A stretch of DNA of 64,000 nt. Origin: Sistotremastrum niveocremeum HHB9708 (taxonomy: Eukaryota; Basidiomycota; Agaricomycetes; Sistotremastrales; Sistotremastraceae). Within the stretch, counting starts at the first letter, position 1. Each line of letters opens with the position of its first letter. Positions 46,803-51,818 of this stretch are shown here, piece after piece. Made by a program: the position numbers and the translations under genes. The notes under the pieces are model-generated. The model was not told the origin of the DNA. It did no database searches and saw only the letters and a list, made by a program, of their open reading frames with translations. Location of the stretch: contig KV419395.1 of assembly GCA_001630475.1 (NCBI GenBank), positions 934,753 to 998,752 on the forward strand. The letters are read 5' to 3'.

Positions 46803-49103
46803 CTACGAGCTCGGACGACCCGGCCACGGCTTGCCACCATTTTGCGCGTTCTCCCATTGCTTCAGTAACTCCTCGTCCCACATTTTGCCAGAATTATCTC
46901 CTTCCATTAGAAGGAAAGTTCGATTTTTGAGCTCCGGAGGGAGAAACTCATTGTGGACTGGGTGCCTGTAGCCAAACGCCAAGTTAGCGATCCGAAAATT
47001 GAGCAAAATGCGACGGTGTTTGTACTAACGCATAATCTGGATTGTAAGCATATCCCTCTCCATAATGAAGATCTTTCATCAGCTTTGTCGGCGCGTTTCT
47101 GATATGAAGCGGAACAGGAATTGTTGCGTCTTCTTTTGCGGCCTTCTCAGCTTGGTTATACGCCTCGTACGAGCGTGTCGACTTCGGAGACTCGGCAAAG
47201 TGTGCTACGCAATGTGCGAGATTAATTCTGACTTGATATCTGAGAAAGCTGCTCGGGACTCGTTCAAATACGGAAATAACGTTCACCTGCATTCTGGCAT
47301 GCCGATGTTCTGACAGGCAGTTAGTGTCGCTATGGCCTGCTGATAGTTAGGCTACCAAAAGAGCACATCCGTGTAAAAAATCACTTCACCAAAGATAGTG
47401 CGTTGTTGTTGGCTAGCCCGATATCTTCGCTTGCCATGACCACTAGTCGGCGCGCGATGTATACAGGATCTTCTCCAGCCGTCAACATCCTTGCCAGCCA
47501 ATAAAGGGCAGCGCTCCCGTCGCTGCCACGGACACTCTTATGCAGAGCACTGATCATATCATAATGTGGATCACCAGTACGATCATAGGCCGTTATTAGA
47601 CTCTTCTTGAAAGATTGAATTAAGGCTTCCGATGGCGTGTCCGACGGGCTCGAAATCGCAAGTTCAAGAAAGGATAATGCTTTACGCGCGTCCCCCGCAG
47701 CGTAAGATGCGATGCATGATATGATTTCTGGAGTGATGTGGTTAAAGTTAGAGGACGACCCCGAGAGAGGTTGTTCTTCTGTAATTGGTGGCGAAGGAGT
47801 TAAGGTCACAGAGGGATCGGAGACCTGGGACGACTGCGGGATGGAATCCTTTGCATCCTTGGGAGCTTCGAGACGTCGCAAAGCACGGCGAAGAACAGTT
47901 TCGATCTCGGCATCAGTGAGAAGCTCTAGTACGAGAACCCTAAAGCCAAATGAAAGAAGGTCAAAGGACAGTTGGTACCGATTACCTGCAACGACTCAGT
48001 AGAGCTGAGTTTAATTTGAAAGATGGGTTCTCAGTCGTAGCACCTATCAACTTCGCAAGATGAGAAAGACGCATCGCATTAAGTGGTTCGCAGACCTGAA
48101 TTTGACCTTGTTCGACATAAGGAAGAAAGACATCCTGTTGAGACCTATTGAACCGATGGATCTCGTCAAGGAAGAGGATCGTTCGTCTGATGAAACCAAT
48201 TCACACCCTTGTCGGGAGATGGCGAAAATACGTACTGGCCAGTTAAACTCAACTGTCGCTTTGCTTCGTCTACTATAACTCGAACATCTGCTGTGCCTGA
48301 CGCCGTCGCACTCAGTTCTTTGAAAATGGCATTGGCATGACGAGCGATTATTCTAGCAAGGGTTGTTTTTCCTGTCAAGGGTTCAATGTTGGACACAGAT
48401 AGGTAGAGCATCAAAGAGACAACCTGTGCCGGGAGGACCCCAGAGTATACAGCTTCCTATTCGGCCATCTCTTAGCTGTTTCGCCAGCACCGACTCGGAG
48501 CCAGGGCCAAGCAATTGGGTCTGTCCAACAAACTCGGATAGTGTATTGGGGCGTATTCGATGAGCAAGGGGGGCGGCTGAATGAGGTTGAGATTGGGTGG
48601 TACTCTTGCCAGCCGTTGTGGTGCTACTAGTAGTTCTGGGACGCTTGGAGGCCGTGTGGCGTGGGGTGCCACTAGCCGATGTGGGATCGCGATCAGTTTG
48701 GCTGGATGAGGGTTCTGCCACGTCTCTGGTTCGTTTGCGTTGGAAGATGGAAGCAAGTTTAACTGGCGGTGGATCAACTGGAATTGGATCTGGAGTGTCG
48801 TCATCTGCAATGGTTATGGCAGACTCAGGAGAGCTGGCTGGTACCCGAGTCATGGCTGGAGTGCCACAATTTGCATCAAGATGTTCGTTTATTTTGGATT
48901 CTAGCACGGGTTCAGAACATGCTGGACTATGGATCAAGTCTAATCAGATTCGGAAGAACGAAAAGGGACTAGTCAGGCTCAGGGAGTGTATGCAGACGCG
49001 CACCATTTGACAACGCGGGCTACTATGAGTCAACATTGTCAGATGGAAGGTGTGGATCATTGAGCAATAGAATCGCACAATTTGATTCTACGGCCCTGGA
49101 CAT
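46803..49103 (-). CDS. MGS1: WRNIP1/Mgs1 AAA+ ATPase with UBZ finger
   Basis: Replication-fork maintenance ATPase that binds ubiquitinated PCNA. The N-terminal UBZ4 finger reads [18 protein letters not shown] then ANC. A PIP-like or linker segment follows ([12 protein letters not shown]), then [20 protein letters not shown], Walker [19 protein letters not shown] (split by an intron), Walker [21 protein letters not shown], sensor [30 protein letters not shown], then [37 protein letters not shown] and [35 protein letters not shown] and [11 protein letters not shown], ending KPWPGRPSS. The start is an inference: MSRAVESN at 49103 joins SRVVK by one intron and then CPAC by a second. The finger onward (about 48930) is certain. 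Confidence 0.88.
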
Positions 49104-49205
49104 TCAAAAGTGCGGTATCGATGGCCAGCAGGCACGAATTTTGCGGAGAGCTCGACTAAAGTTGACCGCTGTAGTCTGAGCGGCTGGACTCGGAACGGAA
49201 TTGGA

Positions 49206-49222
49206 GGACTCCGAAGGAGTCC
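49206..49222. repeat. Perfect hairpin GGACTCC-GAA-GGAGTCC
   Basis: A 7-bp perfect stem with a 3-nt loop, followed by a partial third copy (CCGAAGTC). Confidence 0.8.
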
Positions 49223-49481
49223 GAAGTCTACAGAGCGGCAAAGGAGCGTGATGTAGAGAAGAGGATTACATAATATATTCAGGCCTTGCGCTCTCGCGCC
49301 ATGCTGTCGCTCAGCTACATACCTCGGGCAGCTATTGCAAGATCAAAGATGTTTTCATTTCTATTGTGACTGTCAACTAAATTCTGATGACTGTCAAAAC
49401 TTGTCATGCCGGGGATACCTCAGTTGCTGTGCCCGAGCGAAGTGACACGTGTCGCGAGTCACGACCTCAAACAGCATTTCT

Positions 49482-49508
49482 CGACGATAGACTTGGTGTC
49501 TATCGTCG
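49482..49508. repeat. Hairpin 1 of a TTGGY-loop set, 11-bp stem
   Basis: CGACGATAGAC, loop TTGGT (49493-49497), GTCTATCGTCG. Perfect pairing. Confidence 0.85.
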
Positions 49509-49518
49509 GCCTCTGCTC

Positions 49519-49537
49519 ATACCACTTGGTGTGGTAT
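49519..49537. repeat. Hairpin 2 of a TTGGY-loop set, 7-bp stem
   Basis: ATACCAC, loop TTGGT (49526-49530), GTGGTAT. Perfect pairing with a stem unlike hairpin 1. Confidence 0.85.
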
Positions 49538-49561
49538 AGCTCTGGCCTTGCTGCTGGTTAC

Positions 49562-49584
49562 AGTAATCACTTGGCGTGATTACT
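49562..49584. repeat. Hairpin 3 of a TTGGY-loop set, 9-bp stem
   Basis: AGTAATCAC, loop TTGGC (49571-49575), GTGATTACT. Perfect pairing with a third, different stem. Confidence 0.85.
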
Positions 49585-50064
49585 TGCCAGATTCAAAAAG
49601 AGAACTCGCGATAACTAGAAGACACTTGCGACGACTAGAGCTCGTAGGCTCAGAAGCGAAACATGGCTTGGTCGACGCGCCGGCTCTCAGGAGATTTACT
49701 ATGTTTGCTGCAGATATGATTACTTTTGCTGCTCTCACTCGGCTATTGTCTAGACGCGCCGACCCATGTTCGACACGCGATCTTAGTTCTTCTTGTCTCG
49801 TCTCTCAGAATGATAATACTTGGAAACTATTGATGTACACTAATGCTGGGATGAATGACATGATGCTTTTCTTCATATCTCGATCTTGACTACTGCTCTT
49901 GCGTGTCTCAGAACCTGAACTTGGCAACCAGTACAGAGACGCGCAGTCGTCTGAACAACAAGGCACAAGATTCAGTGCATAAAAGCAATCGATATCCATT
50001 GCTCTGAAGCCAGGATGACTAGATGCGACAGATATCTGGCAGAGAAAATCTCGTGTGAGGTATA

Positions 50065-50588
50065 GCCGAAGGAGGGTAAAACCCTGAAGGCAATTTAAAG
50101 AAGATGGCAGAATATGCCTTGAATGCGGACGCCGAAGGAGGTTTCGATACCTGAAGGCGGTCCAGATGTGCGCAATGATTTTGTCGCCTGAGATTGCCTC
50201 GAGTGAGGTAGCCGAAGAAGGGATAGACCCTGAAGGCAAAAAATATGAGACCGTGTCTGCAGCGAGAGAGGCTCAGACTACGAGACAGCCGAAGGAGGGA
50301 TGTCCCTGAAGGCATATATATATATATAATTGATGTCGTCTTGAGCGAGAGAGGCTCAGACCGCCGAAGGAGGGATAAACCCTGAAGGCGGATATATGTA
50401 TGTTTTTGATGTTGTCTCGAGCGAGAGAGGCTCTGAGTCAGAGAGCCGAAGGAGGGGCAGACCCTGAAGGCAAAAGAGACACATATAATGTCTTGAACAA
50501 TCAAGCCGAAGGAGGGACAATCCCTGAAGGCGAGACTGTAGATCATGCCTTGAGCGAGAGAGCCAAACGAGGGACAGATCCCGAAGGC
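50065..50588. repeat. Interspersed array of eight dyad-symmetric repeats
   Basis: Core of 26-28 nt, GCCGAAGGAGGG then a 3-5 nt spacer then CCCTGAAGGC, at 50065, 50131, 50211, 50288, 50363, 50445, 50505 and 50562 (the last one degenerate). The ends GCC and GGC and the inner AGGG and CCCT can pair, so each core can fold. Spacing between starts is 57-82 nt. Between several copies sits a second conserved piece, GAGCGAGAGAGGCTC, itself a 4-bp stem, at about 50258, 50343, 50419 and 50551 (partial). The composite unit is therefore about 80 nt with two foldable parts. Confidence 0.85.
50314..50328. repeat. (TA)n microsatellite inside the array
   Basis: About seven TA units directly after array copy 4. 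Confidence 0.8.
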
Positions 50589-50740
50589 AATCTCGAAGTG
50601 CTATGTGCATGACCAGATTATTGTTTCCGTGCGCAAGAAGCCAAAAACTTTGGTGATATCGTCTCAGATGACCAGACAGGAGCTAAGAAATGTTTTGAGA
50701 AAAATGGTTCGACTTGATTCTGCGCTTGTTCGGTGTCGGA

Positions 50741-50754
50741 GACTCTTCGGAGTC
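50741..50754. repeat. Hairpin GACTC-TTCG-GAGTC
   Basis: A 5-bp perfect stem closed by TTCG, the DNA form of the very stable UUCG RNA tetraloop. It is nested in a longer imperfect inverted repeat (GACTTGA at about 50711 against TCAAGTT at about 50753). Confidence 0.75.
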
Positions 50755-50766
50755 AAGTTGTCGCCA

Positions 50767-50796
50767 CTCGACTTCAAGTTGAGCCCCGAAGTCGAG
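50767..50796. repeat. Inverted repeat CTCGACTTC / GAAGTCGAG
   Basis: A 9-bp perfect stem with a 12-nt loop (50776-50787), directly after the TTCG hairpin. Confidence 0.8.
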
Positions 50797-50997
50797 AAGA
50801 AGTATGGCCAGACTCAGAAAATCAGACAGAGATGCGATAGTTATTGTTTCTCGAGTGTACATTGACTGGCATACACATATCTATAGAGTCACGGGTCGAG
50901 CCTTGGAGGCGTGGGGGTGAGTCGTCGTGCCGTCGCCTGGCCTCCTGGGCTTTGCCCCGGGCCTTGGGGGTGAGCCGACGGGCACGCCACCCTCGCG

Positions 50998-51049
50998 CCG
51001 GAGGTGTTGACTTGTCGTCACCACCTCTCCTCCCATCCTTCTACGCTCT
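50998..51049 (+). repeat. Left copy of the 52-nt gap-flanking direct repeat
   Basis: Begins CCGGAGGTGTTGACTTG and ends TTCTACGCTCT. Identical to 51430-51481 and ends exactly at the first N. Confidence 0.9.
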
Positions 51050-51429
51050 NNNNNNNNNNNNNNNNNNNNNNNNNNNNNNNNNNNNNNNNNNNNNNNNNNN
51101 NNNNNNNNNNNNNNNNNNNNNNNNNNNNNNNNNNNNNNNNNNNNNNNNNNNNNNNNNNNNNNNNNNNNNNNNNNNNNNNNNNNNNNNNNNNNNNNNNNNN
51201 NNNNNNNNNNNNNNNNNNNNNNNNNNNNNNNNNNNNNNNNNNNNNNNNNNNNNNNNNNNNNNNNNNNNNNNNNNNNNNNNNNNNNNNNNNNNNNNNNNNN
51301 NNNNNNNNNNNNNNNNNNNNNNNNNNNNNNNNNNNNNNNNNNNNNNNNNNNNNNNNNNNNNNNNNNNNNNNNNNNNNNNNNNNNNNNNNNNNNNNNNNNN
51401 NNNNNNNNNNNNNNNNNNNNNNNNNNNNN
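51050..51429. other. Assembly gap (380 N)
   Basis: A run of undetermined bases between two identical 52-nt direct repeats. Gap size may be an estimate. Any open frame reported across it is an artefact. Confidence 0.99.
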
Positions 51430-51481
51430 CCGGAGGTGTTGACTTGTCGTCACCACCTCTCCTCCCATCCTTCTACGCTCT
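51430..51481 (+). repeat. Right copy of the 52-nt gap-flanking direct repeat
   Basis: Identical to 50998-51049. It begins at the first base after the gap. Confidence 0.9.
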
Positions 51482-51818
51482 CCTGCCTGAAGCAGGCCTG
51501 ATAGGCGGAGGAGGCTCTGTAGATCAAATTCTGTTTCTGATGTCGACGTCATGCCTCGCGAGTCGCTTCTGGAGCCTCAGACCTCAGGCACTCAACAATC
51601 AGCATTTCGATCAATTCATAGTTCCAATATTCATATCAAGACTCATATGATCATGCCAACGGAGCATCCGTTGAAGATGTTGCATGGACGTATGTAGATT
51701 GGACGCGCAAGCTTTGATATCATGATCTCTCTTCAGACAGGGTAGCAATCGAACGCAAAGCAGATTGCTAAATAACTACGAGAAAACTTCGTGATTCCTA
51801 CTCATACAGGAAAATACT

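Follow-up and report, generated by a model that had tools for sequence, protein, structure and literature searches.

Helitron2/Helentron elements carry an inverted repeat at the 5′ end and a second copy before the 3′ end, adjoining a palindrome (PMC4067079, PMC5148889), and in the passages considered they prefer to insert at T-rich, TT or TNAT/A sites. HINE/DINE-1 and Cg_HINE elements are described in the passages cited as having inverted repeats in subterminal position and a palindrome at the 3′ end; some or all of them also have central tandem repeats (PMC4067079, PMC7492417); the central repeats of non-autonomous Helentrons are discussed there mainly as satellite seeds and carriers (PMC7492417). 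For the HINEs of mites, the inverted repeats are given as 12–15 bp long and 2–4 and 38–60 bp from the ends, with a palindrome 8–35 bp from the end (PMC4067079). In fungi, the 5′ ends of FoHeli1/2 are C-GAA-G hairpins, some FoHelis have duplicated 5′ ends, and the non-autonomous FoHeliNA come in two lengths, 830 and 1929 bp, the interior of the shorter being unlike any Helitron, according to the sections considered (PMC5148889).

The locus that we compare with these systems lies in a window of 64,000 nt, the whole stretch of DNA that was analysed (C2:934753-998752), within a 34.7-Mb assembly of 111 contigs. A first-pass annotation had described an eight-copy array of foldable repeats at 50065–50588, and this description held: eight cores lie on the + strand at 50065–50091, 50131–50158 (inner stem different yet paired), 50211–50237, 50288–50313, 50363–50389, 50445–50471, 50505–50531 and 50562–50588 (degenerate, with A-C at the A-T pair), at start-to-start distances of 66, 80, 77, 75, 82, 60 and 57 nt. 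The array is beyond chance as judged by shuffles, with a fixed 5-nt loop pattern and up to three mismatches recovering five of the eight cores, where 100 dinucleotide shuffles of the window gave an expectation of 0.00. The further proposal of a unit with two stems applies to several units, as the second piece, (C/G)AGCGAGAGAGGCTC, is present in just three of the seven inter-core spacers, twice as the exact GAGCGAGAGAGGCTC (50343–50357 and 50419–50433, both +) and once as the variant CAGCGAGAGAGGCTC (50260–50274, +).

What the first-pass annotation missed is a larger dispersed element that encloses the array. Homology between copies ends abruptly at 49201 and 51523, with unrelated flanks, and these positions delimit an apparently non-coding element on the + strand that includes a 380-N gap and is homologous to the loci L009 and L010. 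Searches of the genome returned 16 matches to window positions 49180–51049 and seven and eight to the two ends, counts that are lower bounds; copies hidden in assembly gaps would escape the search, and about seven copies were found. Besides the window copy with its eight cores (C2:983953-986275), there is a complete copy of 1890 bp with nine cores (L009, C9:580448-582337), a copy on the minus strand with six cores followed by an N run (C2:51955-53164), a short form past that gap whose start is hidden in N (C2:50730-51094), a gapped copy with one core visible (C34:266592-269773), a short form of 459 bp without the array (C33:207056-207514), a copy with 95 and 94 bases of its ends and a gap between them (C10:599915-602253), and a diverged one-end fragment (C34:263842-263923). 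The element therefore takes two forms, a long one of about 1.9 kb with the array and a short one of 459 bp without it. The array is almost certainly the interior of a mobile element that has no recognisable coding sequence.

A genome search with the core as query, as the first-pass annotation had advised, found core patterns exclusively in elements of this family: the 16 and 13 matches of two patterns all lie in three element copies, against 0 and 1 matches for the reversed controls, with at most the best candidates read and the assembly gaps opaque to the search. The reading of the array as a stand-alone satellite gave way to that of the interior of a dispersed low-copy element, and satellite DNA in the sense of long head-to-tail arrays outside any dispersed element was dropped, as all pattern matches lie in those copies. 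The suggestion that the foldable part had spread was borne out in that cores occur at further loci (nine, six and one visible), where they are carried inside the element. The exact core pattern with a loop of 3–7 nt had no match in IMG/VR or in prokaryote genomes.

The longest N-free frames in the element are 175 aa in the window copy and 116 aa in the C9 copy, and the frames that overlap between these two copies show no sign of coding constraint. In the + strand frame at 49548–49889, 197 of 223 aligned bases keep frame, with 15, 6 and 12 substitutions at the three codon positions, and for the minus-strand frame over the array the figure is 179 of 272, with 8, 11 and 13 substitutions and 103 gap columns. 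A Pfam scan of eight element frames left seven without a match, and the other matched zf-P11 below the cut-off (17.1 of 25.6 bits, E 0.0046). Near the element, one frame contains leucine-rich repeats and the next a PP2C and an adenylate/guanylate cyclase domain, an order seen in fungal adenylate cyclase; to the left, a minus-strand frame at 47381–47881 holds AAA_assoc_2 and MgsA_C domains and is presumably WRNIP1-like.

The ends of the element are sharply defined. The left end sequence, TTGGAGGACTCCGAAGGAGTCCGAAGTCTACAGAGC, is exact over 30 nt in six places in a search that allowed up to three mismatches, and the right end, GCTCTGTAGA on the + strand, was found in seven places, five of them exact, one with one mismatch and one with three over 24 specified bases. 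A perfect terminal hairpin, GGACTCC-GAA-GGAGTCC (49206–49222), is exact in the six copies that hold that end, as is, together with the hairpin, the inner copy of a 10-bp asymmetric inverted repeat, TCTACAGAGC (49227–49236, +), which lies 26 nt inside the left end and adjoins the hairpin; the other copy of the repeat is terminal at the right end (51514–51523, -). Read on the reverse strand, which is probably the orientation of transposition if the element is Helitron2-like, one end has TCTACAGAGC and the other GCTCTGTAGAC followed by GGACTCC-TTC-GGAGTCC. No T-rich target is evident by eye at the junctions of these few copies; a T precedes TGGAGG in five of six copies, and this T may belong to the element.

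Identity between the window and C9 copies varies along the element. It is 100% over the first 40 nt, 87.6% over 49241–49361, 94.8% over 49362–49480, 96.6% over a stretch with three hairpins (49481–49600), 88.5% over 49601–50020, 86.3% with 118 gap columns over the array stretch (50021–50592), 85.4% over 50593–50848, 95.3% over 50849–50955 and 97.9% over the last 94 nt compared (50956–51049). On these identities, few parts of the element are less conserved than the array. Several smaller features were seen along the way. A direct repeat, TGGGGGTGAGYCGWCGKGC, occurs at 50912–50930 and 50965–50983 in the GC-rich right part, and the two segments that hold it are 95–98% identical between the window and C9 copies. 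The short forms (L028, L010) have a distinct interior, and its CCCTCCCTCCC tract is missing from the window and C9 copies. The C34 copy (L027, C34:264500-271800) contains a 417-bp stretch that starts with CAAGGGGG, ends with CACCCTT and has GAGAAGAAG on either side, whereas the window copy has this sequence only once (at 50794); by its sequence, the stretch reads as a nested insertion with a target duplication of about 9 bp.

Taken together, we consider it probable that the element is a small non-autonomous Helitron2-like (HINE-like) rolling-circle element and that the repeats are its central tandem repeats. The two copies of TCTACAGAGC provide asymmetric (sub)terminal inverted repeats and the hairpin at 49206–49222 a terminal palindrome, while the ends are sharp and the flanks unrelated, with three of five copies sharing no flank word of 5 or more. 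The ends are also the best conserved parts, at 100% and 97.9% against 85–89% in four of the other seven segments, and three gaps in the assembly have sizes that suit a long form with a short form behind it. Because no autonomous partner was found for the element termini, membership is called likely by anatomy, and the assignment is that of a candidate family.

The gaps bear on how the element may have moved. The N run at 51050–51429 of the window is preceded by 52 bp (50998–51049) that recur after it (51430–51481). By its size, the run may conceal the point where a short form is joined head to tail, or it may be an assembly artefact, and a single element with a false gap fits the window copy too. 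The run is 380 N against 406 expected if a short form directly follows a long one; the gap at C2:51095-51954, within C2:50730-53164, is 860 N against 842 expected (748 + 94), and the C10 gap is 2150 N against 2160 expected for a long–short pair. Three of the four gap sizes thus fit long–short head-to-tail forms within 7%. The C34 gap is 2035 N against 1177 for a single long form, an excess of 858 that one added short form misfits and that may be about two short forms or something else. These gap sizes, which contain no read sequence, suggest long–short head-to-tail dimers, and the three that fit are at most an indirect hint of a possible rolling-circle transposition. Tandem copies are reported for rolling-circle elements in the passages cited (PMC4067079, PMC7492417).

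Under the Helitron2-like reading, a Rep-helicase encoded elsewhere in the genome would nick at the TCTACAGAGC terminus, peel off one strand and halt at the hairpin end, and missed stops would give rise to the head-to-tail long–short dimers. The array would have grown within the element through duplication of its units and then been carried along. It is possible, though we would not count on it, that the outer stem and the purine internal loop of the cores are kept because the element passes at times through a single-stranded or transcribed state, with folding protecting or marking it.

The genome offers candidates for such a helicase, with 15 Helitron_like_N matches at 14 places (L041–L055), all over the curated cut-off and five of them in open frames of 1365–2051 aa. 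Many of the Helitron Rep matches are diverged and without internal stops, in frames of up to 2051 aa, and three Rep places compared over 9.9 kb each are 65–74% alike in their aligned parts. An autonomous Helitron with the same termini was not found in this gapped assembly, where the end patterns return the family itself; one search gave three extra end-pattern matches with three mismatches, against one for its reversed control. No contig that bears the family carries any of the 15 Rep matches, and blastn with the element (E up to 0.01) gave nothing in the 15 Rep loci or in three longer Rep stretches, for which flanks of more than 1.5 kb were taken at three of the 14 places. Six words that differ from TCTACAGAGC by one mismatch occur in four of these 18 Rep stretches and are taken as chance.

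The alternative that survives best concerns the array and is compatible with the Helitron2-like reading: the array could be a plain minisatellite inside the element, with the cores as the better-preserved part of tandem duplicates and their folding incidental. We judge this somewhat unlikely. The common form of the 24 cores (eight in the window, nine in C9, six in C2 and one in C34) is GCC GAAGR AGGG loop CCCT GAA GGC, with an outer stem GCC/GGC, an internal loop of GAAGR opposite GAA, an inner stem and a loop of 4–7 nt. The outer stem and internal loop are retained across most of the cores. Of the 22 arm positions 10 are invariant; the A-T pair is broken in four of 24 cores and the innermost pair in two of 24. 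Pairing and covariation were scored on 23 of the 24 cores, excluding that of C34, and 97.5% of 161 core cells are paired, against 24.8–53.4% with the partner slid by 1–3 positions. None of 500 shuffles equalled the observed percentage paired, number of doubly changed cells or covariation score, three measures that relatedness of the cores inflates. In favour of a minisatellite, as many doubly changed pairs (two) turned up in 31 of the 500 shuffles and as many pair types in 217, and the changes on both sides, in two pairs and five cells, come every one from unit 2 of three elements. Covariation in the cores favours kept folding and, because of this inflation by relatedness, is suggestive only.

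The divergence of cores and spacers can be read in both directions as well. The first-pass annotation had stated that the spacers diverge more than the cores, and this is strongly the case between units of one array, where the cores stay almost the same even in units with spacers that are hardly alike any longer, which argues against a minisatellite. Between matching units of element copies, the alignment of spacers and cores that had been proposed as a check gave a weak difference and almost alike divergence, as a minisatellite would have it: pooled over seven partly overlapping comparisons, in two of which the spacers are more alike in substitutions, there are mismatches at 37 of 459 aligned core positions and 50 of 416 spacer positions, with 5 and 42 gap columns. 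Between the window and C9 copies, the outer stem is changed at 1 of 48 positions and the compared spacers at 27 of 203 (Fisher p 0.022, in a test picked after the data were seen), while the core tip is changed at 8 of 35 and position 8 of the core in 5 of 8, so that within the cores the outer stem is the part under constraint. Folding of the cores may itself be under selection, a proposal that we hold tentatively. At position 8, seven of the eight window cores have G (core 3 has A) and C9 cores 1–6 have A, so that the position differs in the same direction in five of eight matching cores, while most loops stay unit-specific. This pattern (window 50065–50588 against L009 4273–4850) is concerted change at one base.

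A second alternative places the family among the non-autonomous cut-and-paste DNA transposons (hAT-like or other): its terminal repeats would be short, and it would have made target duplications of 8 bp, most of them since lost. A Helitron should not make a target duplication, yet the C33 copy has an 8-bp repeat, CGGATAAT, in its flanks, directly abutting one end and one base off the left end. Among the five copies with both ends, compared over 25-nt flanks, this is the single duplication at the ends: those of the window, C34 and C10 copies have no common word of 5 or more, and those of C9 have one common 6-mer, away from the ends, so that none of these four shares a word of 7 or more. The asymmetry of the inverted repeats, of which the internal one, 26 nt from its end, is common exactly to six copies, also argues against a cut-and-paste element, which we regard as improbable.

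We are equally doubtful of a third possibility, that the copies are a family of structured non-coding RNA genes duplicated in the genome, with the array and a group of TTGGY hairpins as protein- or RNA-binding modules. These hairpins have the loop in common and different stems, of 11 bp with loop TTGGT (49482–49508), 7 bp with loop TTGGT (49519–49537) and 9 bp with loop TTGGC (49562–49584), and the high identity of their stretch between the window and C9 copies would suit such genes, as would the few compensatory changes. Folding would suit them too. In a scan of the window against shuffles (317 bins per strand, bin size 200 nt, 30 shuffles for each bin), the lowest z-scores on the + strand belonged to bins 50201 (-6.24) and 49401 (-5.64), in the array and the three-hairpin stretch of the element; on the - strand the lowest bin was again 49401 (-5.10), and the second, 36601 (-3.69), is outside. 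The + strand beats the - strand against shuffles in the C9 array (-4.77 and -2.25) and the C2 array (-5.19 and -3.26). The window array (50040–50620) is more foldable than its shuffles on both strands: as RNA, the + strand has z -7.12 (100 shuffles) or -5.24 (60 shuffles) and the - strand -5.04 and -5.08, and as DNA the values are -5.77 (+) and -5.47 (-). Its strands are near equal, however, in the run that gave -5.24 and -5.08, and as DNA. For the TTGGY stretch it is the - strand that has the better fold (-9.14 against -7.97), and the wobble cells of the 24 cores, two G-T and four A-C, are without + strand preference and thus silent on which strand folds. RNA genes also do not account well for the sharp fixed ends, the unrelated flanks and the short form without the array, and Rfam gave no match at gathering score in the window and none at E up to 5 in 49190–51530. 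In the L009 copy, Rfam matches below threshold were U4 (21.4 of 46 bits, E 0.036) and sR9 (18.5 of 36); the U4 match is missing from the window copy and was taken as chance.

Least probable, and highly speculative in our view, is that a strand of the element, as RNA or single-stranded DNA, shows the GAAGR/GAA purine loops of its eight or nine hairpins as a tandem docking platform for one putative protein, with the three TTGGY-loop hairpins upstream, in which case the element would carry a structured array of binding sites that aids its replication or lets it escape silencing.

We also compared the locus with known systems. A likeness of the core to kink-turns and to the VS ribozyme was weighed and dropped. 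Double hairpin elements are repeated small hairpins in the non-coding DNA of fungal mitochondria and are individually mobile; unlike these, the units here are ordered inside an element on a 1.37-Mb contig. The term double hairpin elements is also used in a paper on repetitive hairpin-forming elements of sponges, in the part considered (PMC2800124). A narrow literature search for work linking Helitrons with RNA covariation found no mention of Helitrons among the 10 of 31 papers listed. Closer to the locus are FoHeli and FoHeliNA of Fusarium oxysporum, which are likewise fungal and have asymmetric inverted repeats and, in FoHeli1/2, a C-GAA-G end hairpin; FoHeli1/2 differ from our element by their terminal ATTTT and by an inverted repeat that contributes to the hairpin, and the sections considered mention no central repeat array for FoHeli/FoHeliNA (PMC5148889).

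On its minus strand, the element resembles the Helitron2/Helentron layout, with distances that differ in detail. Like HINE/DINE-1 elements, which are non-autonomous Helentrons, it is non-coding and has inverted repeats unequally far from its ends, a short palindrome near the 3′ end and tandem repeats in some copies, as far as the passages cited describe them (PMC4067079). Unlike the mite HINEs, its inverted repeat is 10 bp long and lies at the terminus and 26 nt inside, with the palindrome 4–5 nt from the end, and unlike HINE/DINE-1 it has about seven copies, a lower bound, with a T-rich target unseen by eye.

On the passages considered, the closest published arrangement is that of Cg_HINE in the Pacific oyster, a non-autonomous Helentron with satellite-like central repeats, some of them related to the Cg170 satellite, and with no autonomous partner that could be related to it (PMC7492417). 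A fungal case with a kept outer stem and internal loop would let one ask whether such repeats serve the element; otherwise, the locus is a useful annotation, that of a fungal HINE-like family with defined ends. In contrast to Cg_HINE, the unit here is 57–85 nt long and combines a folded core that is constant with spacers that vary, and relative to the passages considered, what is new is the fungal host for such central repeats and the two-stem unit with a constant internal loop.
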